In this document: in pieces, positions 37,967 through 57,828 of the stretch
Layout of the letters: every line of letters starts with the position of its first letter
How positions within the stretch are numbered: position 1 is the first letter of the stretch
Assembly (NCBI GenBank): GCA_902500775.1
Contig: CABVRZ010000009.1
Coordinates: 1 to 64,000 of the forward strand
Source of the DNA: an uncultured Nitrospira sp.
Lineage (GTDB): Bacteria > Nitrospirota > Nitrospiria > Nitrospirales > Nitrospiraceae
DNA length: 64,000 nt
Direction: 5' to 3'
Translations under genes and position numbers: made by a program
The notes under the pieces: generated by a model
Databases searched by the model: none
What the model saw: the letters and a program-made list of their open reading frames with translations, nothing else
What the model was told of the DNA's origin: nothing

Positions 37967-38011
37967 GCCTTCACTCTAAAAGTGAGGGATGAATCGGACA
38001 AGAAAATATAA

Positions 38012-38852
38012 GGTAATTAGGGCGAAACGTAACCAAAGAAGCACCGCAAGAAGAGTTTGAAGAGGTTCTCCTTGCGATGGTTGAATCGATACGCAATTTC
38101 CTTCAGATACATCGGAAAATGATATTTCGAGACGCCTCGATAATTGTAGAGGATGTGTTTGGCAAACGACCAGCACCCTTCAATCCCGTTGATGTGGTTC
38201 TTCGTCCGGCGATCAACGCGGCTCTTGCTGTGGTTGACCGTGTGATGTTTGCCATAGCGCCGCAACGATTGCTAACCTCGAAAGGCATCCGTGTCATAGA
38301 CGGAGCCTTTGCGGGTCGTGGTCTGAATGTGGGCCATGAGCGTGTCTGCCGACACGTGCTCGACCACCTTCGTATAGACCCGTCCATCCCGCTCCAGCAG
38401 CCCAAACACCACACGTTTGCCCGCAGCACCTCGGCCCCGGCGCCCCTTGCGTCGTCCGCCGAAATAGGCTTCATCCAGCTCGATTTCCCCAGAAAGTTTG
38501 CTGGCCATGCCTTCCAATTCGGCGATGTGGAACACCGCCGCGCGCAATTTCTGGTAGACCCGGCTGATGACTTTGGGATCGACGCCCAGGTCATGCGCCA
38601 ACCGATAGGCGGGCACCTGCTGAGAGAATCCCTGCAGGATCGCAATCTCACGCCGGAGTTTTGCAAGGCTCTTCTGCCGTCGACAGGTCCGGCATTTCAC
38701 ATACCCGCGTCGTGTCCGATTGACCCGAAACGACCCACAGAACACACACGTGCGACCACGCACAAAGTTGGCTGCACACCCAAAAACACGATGCGATCCC
38801 GTAACCATGCGGCCTCCAGCCTACCAGATGGTTACGAAACGCCCTAATTACC
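38012..38852. mobile_element. IS1595-family element, disabled, with 8-bp target duplication
   Basis: An 841-bp element with 24-bp inverted ends (GGTAATTAGGGCG...CGTAACCA, left 38012-38035, right 38829-38852; three mismatches in the centre). It is bounded by direct repeats AAATATAA at 38004-38011 and 38853-38860. The clean duplication shows insertion by transposition, while the transposase inside carries a nonsense codon. The ends differ from those of the element at 10698, so it is a separate type. Confidence 0.93.
38017..38808 (-). pseudogene. IS1595-family transposase with an in-frame amber codon
   Basis: It reads as one frame from the start at 38808 to the end at 38017 except for a TAG at 38272-38274. 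The first part (to DTDAFRG) has a zinc ribbon (CVFCG...CRTC), GEIELDEAYFGG and the R-K-G-R-R-G-R-G-A-A-G-K block. The second part, in the same frame, continues RRYGKHHTVNHSKSRVD, then HINGIEGCWSFAK, the catalytic C-terminal region. Relatives usually have Tyr at the stop position (FRGY), so a TAC/TAT-to-TAG change is likely. Confidence 0.92.
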
Positions 38853-38900
38853 AAATATAAAGAATAGTGCGCGAAGAGAAGGAAAATGAGTGGGGAAGCT

Positions 38901-39039
38901 CTAGCAGTCTGCTGAAAAACCCTTCGTTCATCCTTCGAGAGCCTTAGGACGAACGAGGCAGCCATTGAAACTATTGAGGTGTTCCGTTCGTGCTGAGCTT
39001 GTCGAAGCACACATATTGAGTTTTTCAGCAGACTGCTAG
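38901..39039. repeat. Palindromic dispersed repeat, copy 1 of 2
   Basis: A 139-bp element whose 20-bp ends (CTAGCAGTCTGCTGAAAAAC and its complement) are perfect inverted repeats. The two inner arms (TTCGTTCATCCTTCGAGAGC and TCCGTTCGTGCTGAGC) are also imperfect complements, so the whole can fold into one hairpin. Copy 2 is at 57280-57416, differing at about eight positions. No gene is encoded. It resembles REP/MITE-type elements that recur in many bacterial genomes. Confidence 0.85.
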
Positions 39040-39120
39040 ACAGTGAACTCAGCTCTGGGATTCACTTGCATCGCATGGAGATCAGGGCTATCCTCAGAGT
39101 CGAGAGTGAGGAGGATCTGT

Positions 39121-39357
39121 ATGAGCTACCTACAACAGACCATCAAAGCCGTGATCCGCCCTGGCGACGAGGCTGGCTATGTGGCCGAGTGCCTGGAAAT
39201 TGCGGTCGTCACGCAAGGGCGAACACTTGATGAGACTGTTAAGCACCTACAAGAAGCCACAGCGCTGCATTTGGAAGGGGAACAGCTGGCAGCGTTCGGC
39301 TTACGCGAGAAACCAACCCTGGTCATCACTATGGAGTTAGATCCCGTTCATGCCTAA
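39121..39357 (+). CDS. hicB: HicB-family antitoxin
   Basis: A 78-residue antitoxin from the ATG at 39121 (MSYLQQTIKAVIRPGDEAGYVAECLEIAVVTQG). It shows the HicB strand-turn pattern with a helical part TLDETVKHLQEATAL. Overlaps hicA by 8 nt. It lacks the C-terminal DNA-binding domain seen in larger HicB, so autoregulation may need another factor. Confidence 0.88.
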   Translation: MSYLQQTIKAVIRPGDEAGYVAECLEIAVVTQGRTLDETVKHLQEATALHLEGEQLAAFGLREKPTLVITMELDPVHA

Positions 39358-39589
39358 GCTACGGCGACTCTCGGGCCGAGAGGTCGTGGCAATTCTCCAA
39401 GGGTTTGGCTTCCAGCAGGCTTCCCAAAGGGGCAGCCACTTCAAGCTAGTCCGCGAAGTAGCAGGCGCACGCCAAGTCCTGACGGTTCCACTCCACACCG
39501 AACTCGACTCCGGCACCCTACGCGCCATCTTTCGCCAAGCCAGTCGATTCATTGCCGAATCAGAATTACGTCCACATTTCTATACATAA
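39350..39589 (+). CDS. hicA: HicA-family mRNA interferase toxin
   Basis: A 79-residue basic protein with the HicA (YcfA) fold: LSGREVVAILQGFGFQQASQRGSHFKLVRE, including the catalytic His in GSHFKL, and C-terminal VPLHTELDSGTLRAIFRQA. HicA toxins cleave mRNA. The overlap with hicB gives coupled synthesis. The pair sits next to the decayed TIR-NACHT gene. Confidence 0.9.
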   Translation: MPKLRRLSGREVVAILQGFGFQQASQRGSHFKLVREVAGARQVLTVPLHTELDSGTLRAIFRQASRFIAESELRPHFYT

Positions 39590-39762: not shown

Positions 39763-41567
39763 ATGTGGAGCGGTCCGAATGTGTGCGAATCCACCCCCAA
39801 CGCTGAACAGTTCGACGTCTTCCTCTGTCACAACAGCGAGGACAAGTAGGAGATTCGTCAGATCGCGGACGAATTGATCCGTCGAGGGCTCAAGCCATGG
39901 TTAGACGAACGGGAGATACCACCCGGGAGAGTATGGCAAGAAGCTCTGGAAGCGCAGATCGGAACCATCAAAGCTGTCGCAGTCTTTGCTGGGGACAGCG
40001 GCATAGGGCACTGGCAGAATGAGGAGATGCGCGCCTGCTTCGATCAATTTAAAAAAAGTGGCCGCCCCGTGATTCCCGCGATTCTGTCGTCAGCGACGGA
40101 GGCACCTAAGTTCCCCCTCTTTCTTCAGAATCGTCACCATTATAGATTTCCGGAGGGCTGACCCAGATCCGATTAAACAACTTATTTGGGGGAGCACCGG
40201 GAAAAAGCCAGACCACCAGGACTCCACGACTGCCGCTATGAGTCAGTCGTCGCCTTCTTTGAACCCTGACGGCAAGGATCTACTCCCTTCTAAAGCGAAA
40301 CAACTCATTGAAGTTCGCCTACCAGGCAATGTGGATGAATTCTCGCCTGAACAGCAAGCCACATTCATGCAGTCGCTCGCTGCCCTTCTCAAACTTGGCG
40401 AAGTGAAGGTCACGAGAGTGGTGGCAGGCAGTATTCGGCTGTATCTTGAGCTTGATCAAGAAGACGCGGATAAGCTGTACAGTGCGAGTAAAGAAGGGCG
40501 CCTCAAGGAGCTGTCCCTCTCAGAGGTTCGGCTCTATCCCGCTATTGCTATTCCTCCTTACCAGGAACAGCGTGCCCAACTGGAGATTCTACGAGATCGG
40601 GTCCAAGAGTATTGGATCGATGGCGTACTCAAGCAGTCCCTCCACCGCGAAGTACTGATTTCGCTCGGCGAGCACGCGATGGACGAGGTCGTAGAGCCGC
40701 CGTGGAAACACATCCTGGCATTGCCGGCTGATCGTCGCCACCTTCTACTACAAGATCGCAACATCACCACCATCTTCGATGCGACAGGTCTCCTCCTCAT
40801 CTTAGGAGAACCCGGGTCAGGGAAAACGACGACTTTACTGGAACTTGCGTGCGCCCTGATTGCCAGAGCAAAAACCGATCACAAGGAACGAGTGCCTGTC
40901 GTGTTGAATCTCTCCAGTTGGATCAAGAACCAGTCTATTGAAGAGTGGATCGCAAGCGAAATGTTAGCAAAGTATCGCGTACCCACATCGATCGCCGAGG
41001 CTTGGTTAACAAATGACTATCTCGCACCACTACTGGATGGGCTGGGTGAAGTTCAAACCGCGAGCCAACCTGATTGCCTAGCGGCTATTAATGCCTTCAT
41101 CGAAAATAGCAAACCCTCTGGAATGGTCGTGTGCTGTCGCCTTGCGGAATATCAGAGGCTCCCCGAACGACTCAAACTAAACGACGCAGTCCGCCTCGAA
41201 CCACTCAGTCCAGAGGATGTTAGTTGGAGCATTAGTCTTTGCCGGGGTAATTGCAGTATTTCCATCAGAAGCGATCTCAGGACCGATCATCGGACTGATC
41301 TGTGGATTGATCTTTGGGCTGGCTATCGGGCTCAATCGTGGCGGTTCTGCGGTGGTGAAGCATTATGCGCTTCGATTGATACTTTGGTTGACGAAATCCA
41401 CACCCTTCCGATTCATTCCGTTCCTCGACCATTGCGCAAAACTGATTCTCCTAAAGAAGGTCGGTGGCGGCTACATGTTCATCCACCGAACCCTCCTCGA
41501 ATATTTCTCAGCGCTCCCTCCATACGATCAACAGACAAAGAAGTCCTCAGCGCGCGCCACTTCCTGA
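39763..41567 (+). pseudogene. Decayed TIR-NACHT (STAND) gene
   Basis: Three consecutive frames together read as one multidomain protein. First is a TIR domain (QFDVFLCHNSEDK, then IADELIRRGLKPWLDE), interrupted by TAG at 39847-39849. A frameshift near 40125-40155 leads to VTIIDFRRADPDPIKQLIWG and a NACHT ATPase with Walker A LGEPGSGKTTT (about 40796-40830) and a degraded Walker B (LLDGLGEV instead of DGLDEV). A second shift near 41200-41230 reaches the membrane/C-terminal part with VGGGYMFIHRTLLEYF. About 200 residues usual for the family seem missing at the last junction. Such STAND proteins act as immune sensors; this one looks non-functional. Confidence 0.85.
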
Positions 41568-41584
41568 GCCCGAATAGAAGCTGA

Positions 41585-41903
41585 AAACTAGCAATCCCTC
41601 GTGTCGTGCCCCCAAGAAGATTATCTATTAACCGCTCGCCTTGCGTTTATCGAAGGAGCTATTGGCAACTGACCGCTATCTCCTTCACATACATACCCAC
41701 CTATCCAGTCCCCTTCTTAACCGTATCGATCTGGATACTCTCGTTATCTAAATGGATTCACTTTCCCTACGCTCCTCTTCCCGCAGACTCCCACAACACT
41801 TTGAAATCAAAAATTCTTTTCACTGAATCATTGTGGCCTGGTCCTTGCCTTCATGATCTCTCATGAGACAACACATGACGCACCTGTTCAGAGGGGAGTC
41901 TGT
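41585..41903. other. Intergenic, no gene seen
   Basis: About 320 bases after the NACHT remnant. There are no motif-bearing frames or repeats. The last bases hold the leader of the cytochrome gene (GAGGGGAG ribosome site). Confidence 0.5.
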
Positions 41904-43763
41904 ATGAAACCATCACTATTGCTCACAGCGTTCATGCTGGTATCGATAACCGGTTGTTCCATACCCACCGTGTTTGTGCCAGGCATTCCTCACCACCCTC
42001 CGGTGAAGGAAGTCCGGTGGCTCGAGCAGAACTGGTCGGACGACGAACGGTTCTGGTTTCATCATGTTTCGCAAGGCACCTCGACTCTGCCGGTTCCGTA
42101 CAACTGGTTTTTGGCACTGGAACAACCAGAGCTGTCGCCGTTGAGCACTCCTGGGCTACTCTCGGATCCCGATTATTTGAGTCGATATGGCTTTATTCCT
42201 AGTCCCAAGCGGATGGGAACAAGTGTTGGGTCACGAGGCAACCACCTCATGCTTGCTGGAAACCCTGACGGTCTACCGGTCGGGTTCAGCAAATTACCTG
42301 CTGCTCCAGACCCTGTCACCGGTAACATGCAACCCGACCAACTTGGATTTACCTGTGCCGCCTGTCATACGGGACAGGTCGAGTATCACGGTGCGAGCCT
42401 CCGCATCGACGGTGCACCCGCGCTCACCGATCTCGGCAAGTTCCGCAATGCGCTTGGGCTGTCGCTAGCCCAGACAGACGCCGTCCCAGGACGCTTTGGG
42501 CGATTCGCCACGCGAGTCCTTGGTGACAGCCATACGACAGAGCAAGCGGCTCAGCTACAAGGGCAACTGAAAGCTCTGCTTGCCCGCATCCAACAGTTGA
42601 AGACGATCACCGATACCGTGGCCGATCAGAATGTCGAAGAAGGCTTTGCGCGCCTGGATGCGATCAATCGAATCGGTACACAGGTATTCTTTACCGATTT
42701 ACTGGGTGCTCCAGGGTTCGATGCCCGAGTGAATTTGACGGGCAACAATGCGCCGGTGAACTTCCCCCACATTTGGGATACGTATTGGTTTACGTGGGTG
42801 GAATATGACGCCTCGATCATGCAACCGATGTTTCGCAATGCGGGCGAAGCGTTGGGTGTGGGTGCCAAAATCAATCTTGTCAATCCAAAACGACCGCTGT
42901 ATAAATCCACCGTGGGAGTTCAGGAATTATACGACATCGAAGAATTACTGGCCGGAAAGAACCCTCATTCCGGTACACCCGGGTTCAAAGGCCTTCGCTC
43001 ACCAGCCTGGCCCGAAGATATTCTTGGGAAGATCGATCAAGGAGGTAAGGAGCGCGGTCAGGCTCTGTATCGAGAGTTGTGTCAGAGCTGCCATCTGGCT
43101 CCAGTGAATGAAGCTACCTTCTGGACGGATCGACGCTGGCAGGCGCCGAATGCCGCCGGTGAGCGCTATCTCAATTTGGTCGAAGTTCCGGCGACAGAGA
43201 TTGGAACCGATCCAGGACAAGCGAGCATTTTGGGACAACGGAAGATCACCCTTCCGGCCTATCTCGGTATTCCTGGAACACCCAAAGACGATGGCACGCT
43301 TGTCGAAGGAACGTTTGGGCAGGTTCTGGCAGCAGTGGTCGATAACGCGACCACCTCCTGGTATGACGACCACAACATAGCGCCCGCCGATCGCGATCGA
43401 ATGAACGGCTACCGACCCAATCTCCTCCAGACAAAAAACATTTATAAGGCTCGTCCCCTGAATGGGATTTGGGCAACCGCGCCCTTTCTCCATAATGGTT
43501 CAGTGCCGACAATCTATGCCCTGCTCTCGCCCGTTGCGGAACGCCCAACAACCTTCTGTTTAGGTGATCGTGAATACGACCCGACACACATGGGGTACCG
43601 TACAGACTGTGCAGCAGGGACCTTCCGATTCGATACGTCTATCCCTGGCAATCTTCACACGGGTCACGAATTTGAGAACGGACCCGCCGGAAAGGGTGTC
43701 ATTGGACGAGCGCTCAGCCACCAGGAACGGCTTGATCTGGTCGAATTTCTCAAGAGCCTGTAG
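41904..43763 (+). CDS. RoxA-like di-heme cytochrome c lipoprotein
   Basis: A 619-residue protein from the ATG at 41904 with a lipoprotein signal (LLLTAFMLVSITGC). Two heme motifs are seen: CAACH near residue 150 and CQSCH near 393. The late block KARPLNGIWATAPFLHNGSVPTIYALLSP is typical of the RoxA/MauG-like di-heme family, and a long insert precedes the second heme. RoxA enzymes oxidise substrates such as rubber or act as dioxygenases. Substrate here is unknown. The lipid anchor suggests an outer-membrane or periplasmic face. Confidence 0.85.
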   Translation: MKPSLLLTAFMLVSITGCSIPTVFVPGIPHHPPVKEVRWLEQNWSDDERFWFHHVSQGTSTLPVPYNWFLALEQPELSPLSTPGLLSDPDYLSRYGFIPSPKRMGTSVGSRGNHLMLAGNPDGLPVGFSKLPAAPDPVTGNMQPDQLGFTCAACHTGQVEYHGASLRIDGAPALTDLGKFRNALGLSLAQTDAVPGRFGRFATRVLGDSHTTEQAAQLQGQLKALLARIQQLKTITDTVADQNVEEGFARLDAINRIGTQVFFTDLLGAPGFDARVNLTGNNAPVNFPHIWDTYWFTWVEYDASIMQPMFRNAGEALGVGAKINLVNPKRPLYKSTVGVQELYDIEELLAGKNPHSGTPGFKGLRSPAWPEDILGKIDQGGKERGQALYRELCQSCHLAPVNEATFWTDRRWQAPNAAGERYLNLVEVPATEIGTDPGQASILGQRKITLPAYLGIPGTPKDDGTLVEGTFGQVLAAVVDNATTSWYDDHNIAPADRDRMNGYRPNLLQTKNIYKARPLNGIWATAPFLHNGSVPTIYALLSPVAERPTTFCLGDREYDPTHMGYRTDCAAGTFRFDTSIPGNLHTGHEFENGPAGKGVIGRALSHQERLDLVEFLKSL

Positions 43764-57279: not shown

Positions 57280-57416
57280 TAGCAGTCTGCTGAAAAACCC
57301 TTCGTTCATCCTTCGAGAGCCTCAGGACGAACGGGGCAGCAATTGAAACTATTGAGCTTTTCCGTTCGTGCTGAGCTTGTCGAAGCACACGTATTGAGTT
57401 TTTCAGCAGACTGTTA
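57280..57416. repeat. Palindromic dispersed repeat, copy 2 of 2
   Basis: A 137-bp element matching 38902-39038 at all but about eight positions, with the same 19-bp ends (one mismatch here). It lies in a gene-free stretch. See the first copy for the folding pattern. Confidence 0.85.
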
Positions 57417-57828
57417 GTAGTTCGTCGCTGGGCGGTAGGGAGCGCCTTGACCATCCAGAAGTGCTCGAGTTTGAACCACCCCTGAGGGCAGGGGCCCACA
57501 AGGCAGCGCTCTGAGCATTTTAGATGATGCTGGCCACGCACAGATATTTACCTTCACTCTGTTTCCAAGCAAGACATCTCCCGTAGGACCTGCTCCCTCC
57601 CCACTGTATCGAAAGAGATTCAGTCCGTATCGATTTAGATTCATCGCCATACAGCTCCACCTGAAAAGCAACGAATCCTTAGGACAATTGCAGTCTCCTA
57701 GAGGTCTGCTTATTGCACATCTAAATTCACTCTACGGATACCCAAATGAGGCTGTCCGCAGACATCGATGTCAATAAAGCGACAGGACTATCATTTTTTA
57801 GCACATTCGCTGTACGGAGGGCATATTC
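57417..57828. other. Intergenic, no gene seen
   Basis: About 410 bases without a convincing coding frame. The final bases carry a CGGAGGGC ribosome site for the next gene. Confidence 0.5.

Follow-up and report, generated by a model that had tools for sequence, protein, structure and literature searches.

Positions 39763-41567 of the 64,000-nucleotide stretch of DNA analysed here (the window) raise a question: three reading frames carry parts of an immune sensor that no single frame spans. Is this a working gene disguised by faulty sequence, a shortened gene that still makes a useful product, or the remains of a dead one, and, if dead, are its neighbours eroding with it? We conclude with high confidence that the locus holds a STAND immune sensor of the TIR-NACHT kind, encoded by a single gene and inactivated recently.

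The remnant and its lesions

The stretch is the remnant of a single forward-strand gene, the three frames of which encode one protein in order. The first piece (39763-40158) matches the Pfam family TIR_2 (E=1.1e-13; 52.1 bits versus a cut-off of 28) and retains the aligned glutamate of the W-x-x-x-E motif (here, WQNEE). The second is an open reading frame at 40133-41227 that includes a pre-NACHT region and NACHT domain (40560-41227; Pfam NACHT, 9.9e-7, 29.2 bits versus a cut-off of 26.7) with an intact P-loop, GEPGSGKT. Since TIR_2 and NACHT both score above their Pfam cut-offs, chance is excluded for these two matches. The third, C-terminal piece (41217-41567; coding at 41217-41564, with its own TGA stop at 41565-41567) matched no Pfam family; it retains the final hydrophobic segments together with the conserved VGGGYMFIHRTLLEYF block (FIHRTLLEYF). 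When the intact protein of genome G051 was used as a tblastn query, the three pieces proved to be collinear, with identities of 75%, 67% and 75% over 370, 123 and, for the C-terminal piece, 87 residues. The initial annotation had read TIR, NACHT and the FIHRTLLEYF block as parts of one STAND protein spread over three frames; the Pfam matches and the collinear tblastn hits agree with it.

That annotation had also proposed an alignment with intact TIR-NACHT genes of related genomes, and several lesions are seen when the locus is compared at the DNA level with the genes of G051, G031 and G042 and the partly broken gene of G018. All are given here on the forward strand. A premature TAG lies in frame within the TIR piece at 39847-39849; it is absent from G051, G031, G042, G018 and G197. 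Relative to four aligned relatives, a one-base insertion at 40137-40143 (near 40140; the alignment leaves the exact base unfixed) shifts the frame. At 41045-41047 the Walker B motif is altered: the window has DGLGEV where relatives have DGLDE(V/L), i.e., the second Asp has become Gly, and DGLDE is kept in all four intact orthologues. The last lesion is a deletion with its junction at 41216-41226 (~41220), which took away the helical region that follows NACHT and most of a multi-transmembrane (TM) block. Judged from block coordinates, the net loss is 989 nt relative to G051 and 740 nt relative to G031, and homology resumes on both sides; since neither figure is a multiple of three, the deletion itself makes the second frame change. 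The in-frame stop, both changes of frame, the damaged Walker B motif and the large internal deletion had each been called in the initial annotation, and all of them stand. None of these lesions occurs in the aligned relatives, and the G018 gene is broken differently. As no single open reading frame remains, we file the locus as a pseudogene and not as a working member of its group.

Might the gene really be intact, and the damage an error of assembly or sequencing? The genome is in 79 contigs, and a stop and a single-base insertion are the usual types of error; the TAG and the inserted base could in principle have arisen in this way, but that would leave the deletion and the Walker B change in place. 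It also counts against such an error that the four lesions differ in kind, one of them being a net loss of 740-989 nt between homologous flanks, and that the locus is inside a 112 kb contig, away from its end. Furthermore, three long ORFs nearby (719, 601 and 897 amino acids) are open, as would hardly be expected if base errors were frequent throughout the contig. The longest of these is KdpD according to Pfam; the other two, named by eye, are presumably kdpB and kdpA. We regard an error as extremely unlikely. The claim that the gene is dead is supported instead, by several lesions of more than one kind and by the existence of intact orthologues, that of G051 at the same locus.

Age of the death and losses among relatives

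When omega was left free on the window branch in a codon model, its value there was 0.26 versus 0.20 for the background; omega = 1 was rejected (2dlnL 24.73) and equality with the background was not (1.39). The separate pieces behave similarly: for TIR, omega on the window branch was 0.28 (omega = 1 rejected, 7.28; not different from background, 1.55), and for the linker plus NACHT it was 0.23 (omega = 1 rejected, 20.0; not different from background, 0.08). Given that omega = 1 is rejected, the gene was under constraint for most of the branch; from these substitution patterns, the death of the gene looks recent, and the description 'mid-decay' in the initial annotation is borne out in that sense. 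Synonymous sites are near saturation (dS between the window and G051 is 0.83-1.16 in TIR, linker and NACHT, and 2.1 in the C-terminal piece), so this dating is only rough.

We also counted changes unique to the window branch by codon position, with G031 as the third taxon: the values were 13/12/15 for the TIR piece and 10/9/28 for the NACHT piece. Nonsynonymous-to-synonymous counts were 26:14 in the TIR piece versus 37:55 in the rest (Fisher p = 0.013). The idea that the TIR piece relaxed first was considered and set aside: counts are small, the signal is weaker with G042 or G018 as the third taxon, and the likelihood test for TIR does not support it (2dlnL 1.55).

The third-position bias of the NACHT piece on the window branch (10/9/28; omega 0.20) bears on another reading, in which a truncated protein still works. 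The remnant contains an ORF (40238-41584) that has an ATG start, carries the P-loop and is still open for 448 codons; its 448-amino-acid product might still be made and, comprising the linker and NACHT but no TIR, might be kept, e.g., as a decoy or regulator. The bias is accounted for just as well by constraint that preceded a recent death, however, and the product would have Gly in place of the Walker B Asp; moreover, past the deletion this ORF reads the C-terminal block in the wrong frame for ~118 residues. A truncated protein that still works is, in our judgement, very unlikely, and we retain the recent inactivation of the whole sensor as the explanation for this locus.

Intact orthologues occur in three genomes of the same genus (G051, 930 amino acids; G031, 840; G042, 831) and in one of a sister genus (G197, 917). 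The window's NACHT frame, used as query, found matches in 12 of 116 related genomes, the G051 protein in 9 of 295 genomes of the phylum, and the G197 protein in 8 of 79 genomes of the genus, own genome included in each count. Five of the eight genus matches have the TIR-NACHT orthologue: those of G051, G031 and G042 are intact, and those of the window and G018 are broken. In the remaining three (G016, G068 and G041), identity over the matched part is 39-40%; G016 carries another TIR and G068 another N-terminus, and none was recognised for the G041 NACHT frame. By eye, we take the N-terminal parts in G068, G101 and G041 to be DUF4062-like; a preprint (PMC13174449) reportedly treats DUF4062 as TIR-like NADases.

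The reading frame of the G018 copy (locus L021) is disrupted by the loss of one base and the gain of five, neither at a place affected in the window; unless the G018 lesions are assembly errors, the gene has therefore been lost at least twice. The window adds one more case of immune gene loss, in which two of the five orthologues among 79 genus genomes are broken, by different lesions; the survival of intact versions in relatives marks this as ordinary gene loss.

A scan of GTDB contigs, which finds close relatives only, returned one locus (L017), on the same contig as that of G051. Among plasmids, 55 records matched the intact G051 protein, with none reaching 80% query coverage; no plasmid record matched the G197 linker region alone at 0.01, and nothing in IMG/VR matched patterns of the intact protein. 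PHROGs returned weak matches of unknown function for the intact protein.

Surrounding genes and mobile elements

The initial annotation had placed the dead gene in a small defence island in erosion, beside hicBA, an insertion sequence (IS) with a target duplication and a palindromic repeat. All of these neighbours are present, and they lie with the dead gene within 3.6 kb. The forward-strand pair immediately upstream of the remnant consists of a HicB-like antitoxin ORF (39121-39357), named by its position and size as its Pfam hits were subthreshold only, and a HicA toxin ORF (39350-39589; HicA_toxin, 1.4e-14, 54.3 bits versus a cut-off of 27) that is also assigned to a toxin family in PHROGs. 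Compared with G051, the two proteins show amino-acid identities of 94% and 92% and dN/dS values of 0.01 (dS saturated) and 0.09. Being intact and under purifying selection, this pair is not eroding: the hicBA-like neighbours are unaffected by the death of the remnant.

The IS is of the IS1595 type (38012-38852, reverse strand), with an ISXO2-like transposase, inverted ends, and an 8-bp target duplication, AAATATAA, at 38004-38011 and 38853-38860. Its transposase is split in two ORFs, which might be taken as a further sign that the neighbourhood decays as a unit; but the IS and the repeat each recur around the genome, the former with 10 matching stretches, its own included. We also observed a 92% identical copy of this IS at G000:C18:76140-76981, in which the transposase is in one 263-amino-acid frame. 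The palindrome (38900-39040; MITE-like, ~140 bp, no strand assigned) is a genomic repeat with about 27 near-full copies among 53 places listed, many of which are the same place on the other strand, with 40 of 55 candidates scored; 24 of the other 26 copies are 89-97% identical. A second copy is found in the window at 57280-57417. The IS and the palindrome are both upstream of hicBA, and both are absent from the G051 locus, where there is no IS insertion.

Nor do other genes around the remnant support an island. Ten proteins, namely the hicBA-like pair and eight chosen ORFs from 26.6-54.5 kb, were compared with PADLOC at 1e-8, and none matched. Pfam supplied names for eight of ten chosen ORFs (27.4-59.1 kb), none of them a defence family: porin, response regulator, KdpD, M50 and M16 peptidases, metallo-hydrolase, aminotransferase and peptidoglycan-binding protein. 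With the pair constrained, the IS and palindrome dispersed and no PADLOC match in ten of ten, we did not uphold the claim of an eroding defence island, and consider it improbable that these elements are decaying as a unit. Rfam at gathering thresholds found nothing in the whole window, and there is no tRNA in the window.

The window and G051 have in common the same left gene, the hicBA-like pair and the TIR-NACHT gene. On the right flank, 106 bases of G051 match the end of the M50 peptidase gene, and then the contig ends. In the window, we noted a RoxA-like cytochrome c gene (41903-43763) between the remnant and the M50 gene; it is missing at that place in G051, and a further insertion or deletion therefore separates the two loci.

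Linker and membrane block of the intact proteins

The intact proteins have the order TIR, linker domain (where present), NACHT, several hydrophobic segments and a conserved end motif; our statements about TM segments rest on Kyte-Doolittle windows. The linker, which had been absent from the initial annotation, comprises ~90 residues between TIR and NACHT, and lies in the remnant at about 40283-40555 (forward strand). G051, G031 and G197 have it; G042 and G018 do not. The window linker matches Pfam TRADD-like_N at 0.0012 (19.1 bits), below the cut-off of 23.7, and neither of two orthologous linkers tested matches that family. A scan of 59 relatives with TRADD-like_N gave no match, but is uninformative as it gave none in 14 control genomes either.

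A two-sequence AlphaFold model of the linker (pLDDT 68.1) is arranged as strand-helix-strand-strand-helix-helix-strand. Foldseek found no match to this model at or below 0.001. In a VIA-align comparison it superposes on TRADD (1f2h) with a Z of 6.4 and an rmsd of 3.4 over 93 residues, a match that ranks 35th among many RRM/ferredoxin-like folds and is no better than these. Kaur et al. 2021 (PMC8195603) describe bacterial TRADD-N domains that are located between an effector (e.g., TIR) and a part such as a STAND NTPase and have a conserved Ser at the β2-β3 turn, nitrospirae being one of the groups in which they are over-represented. In our model a Gly-Ser (49-50) lies between the two central strands (42-47 and 51-58). 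Our proteins resemble those of Kaur et al. in that a small domain is situated between an N-terminal TIR and a C-terminal STAND-type part. They differ in that the Pfam match here is below the cut-off, and is made by the window sequence only. In section 9 of PMC8195603, multi-TM domains are mentioned only for a second gene, and not in TIR-TRADD-N-NACHT proteins. We consider the linker likely to be a TRADD-N domain.

Another distinguishing feature of the four intact proteins is their TM block, which has a mean pairwise identity of 43% with 27% gaps; the corresponding identities are 76% for NACHT, 67% for the segment between NACHT and the TM block, and 79% for the end. We propose the TM block as the candidate sensor because it is the fastest-evolving part of these proteins, in a comparison confined to these four. 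Pfam matched no repeat domain here. The TIR of G197 aligns with that of the NAD(+) hydrolase AbTIR (PDB 8g83; 1.4e-4), W-x-x-x-E glutamate included; the solved AbTIR chain is a TIR domain without NACHT. We envisage that, in the intact relatives, the variable multi-TM block would trigger ATP-driven assembly of NACHT, and that this assembly would bring TIR domains together, leading to NAD+ hydrolysis by which the infected cell would be stopped. In the window lineage, the stop and the frame change sever TIR, the Walker B Asp is gone, and the deletion has removed most of the membrane block; with these three losses, no working sensor is expected.

As described in PMC12169576, bNACHT25, one of the NLR-related bacterial NACHT (bNACHT) antiphage proteins, also combines a central NACHT and an N-terminal effector in one polypeptide, the effector being a PD-(D/E)XK nuclease and the C-terminal domain NCH1. 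In contrast, the proteins here have TIR as effector and, towards the C-terminus, a multi-TM block and then a short conserved motif. PMC10907252 is about hypermutated NACHT sensors. In a literature search that covered few subscription papers, we recognised none that describes a TIR/NACHT/multi-TM arrangement and none that reports an antiphage test of the intact group.

A closer likeness is offered by WP_179077053.1, a CHAT-NACHT-multi-TM protein from a Nostoc plasmid that is 31% identical to the G051 protein over 783 aligned residues, which take in NACHT, the TM block and the end motif; the initial stretch of this alignment, inside CHAT, is probably forced. It differs from the G051 protein in that CHAT replaces TIR as effector and TRADD-like_N has no match.

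The intact group is a modest but more useful lead than the remnant: its sequences point to a bacterial NLR-like protein with a likely membrane sensor. A bolder and, in our view, rather doubtful hypothesis is that the intact relatives represent an undescribed NLR-like branch in which the multi-TM block replaces the repeat sensor, between NACHT and the end motif. The block would diversify fast, the effector would be exchanged (TIR; CHAT in Nostoc; by eye, DUF4062-like in G068 and G101), and the TRADD-N-like adaptor would come and go; phage damage to the membrane would be sensed, and answered by NAD+ loss or the action of another effector.

Two gene neighbourhoods of these proteins were also noted. 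In locus L065, on the plasmid of Nostoc sp. C057, the CHAT-NACHT-multi-TM gene, with the same membrane module and another effector, adjoins a gene for a Trypco2 protein. In G197 (L062, 2480-7415), the intact TIR-NACHT gene is preceded by a phospholipase-type effector gene (PADLOC, 5.4e-76) and by a long gene that ends in a TIR. We take this long gene, by eye, to encode WD40-like repeats and a GTPase-like part; its C-terminal TIR is 50% identical to the TIR of G051.
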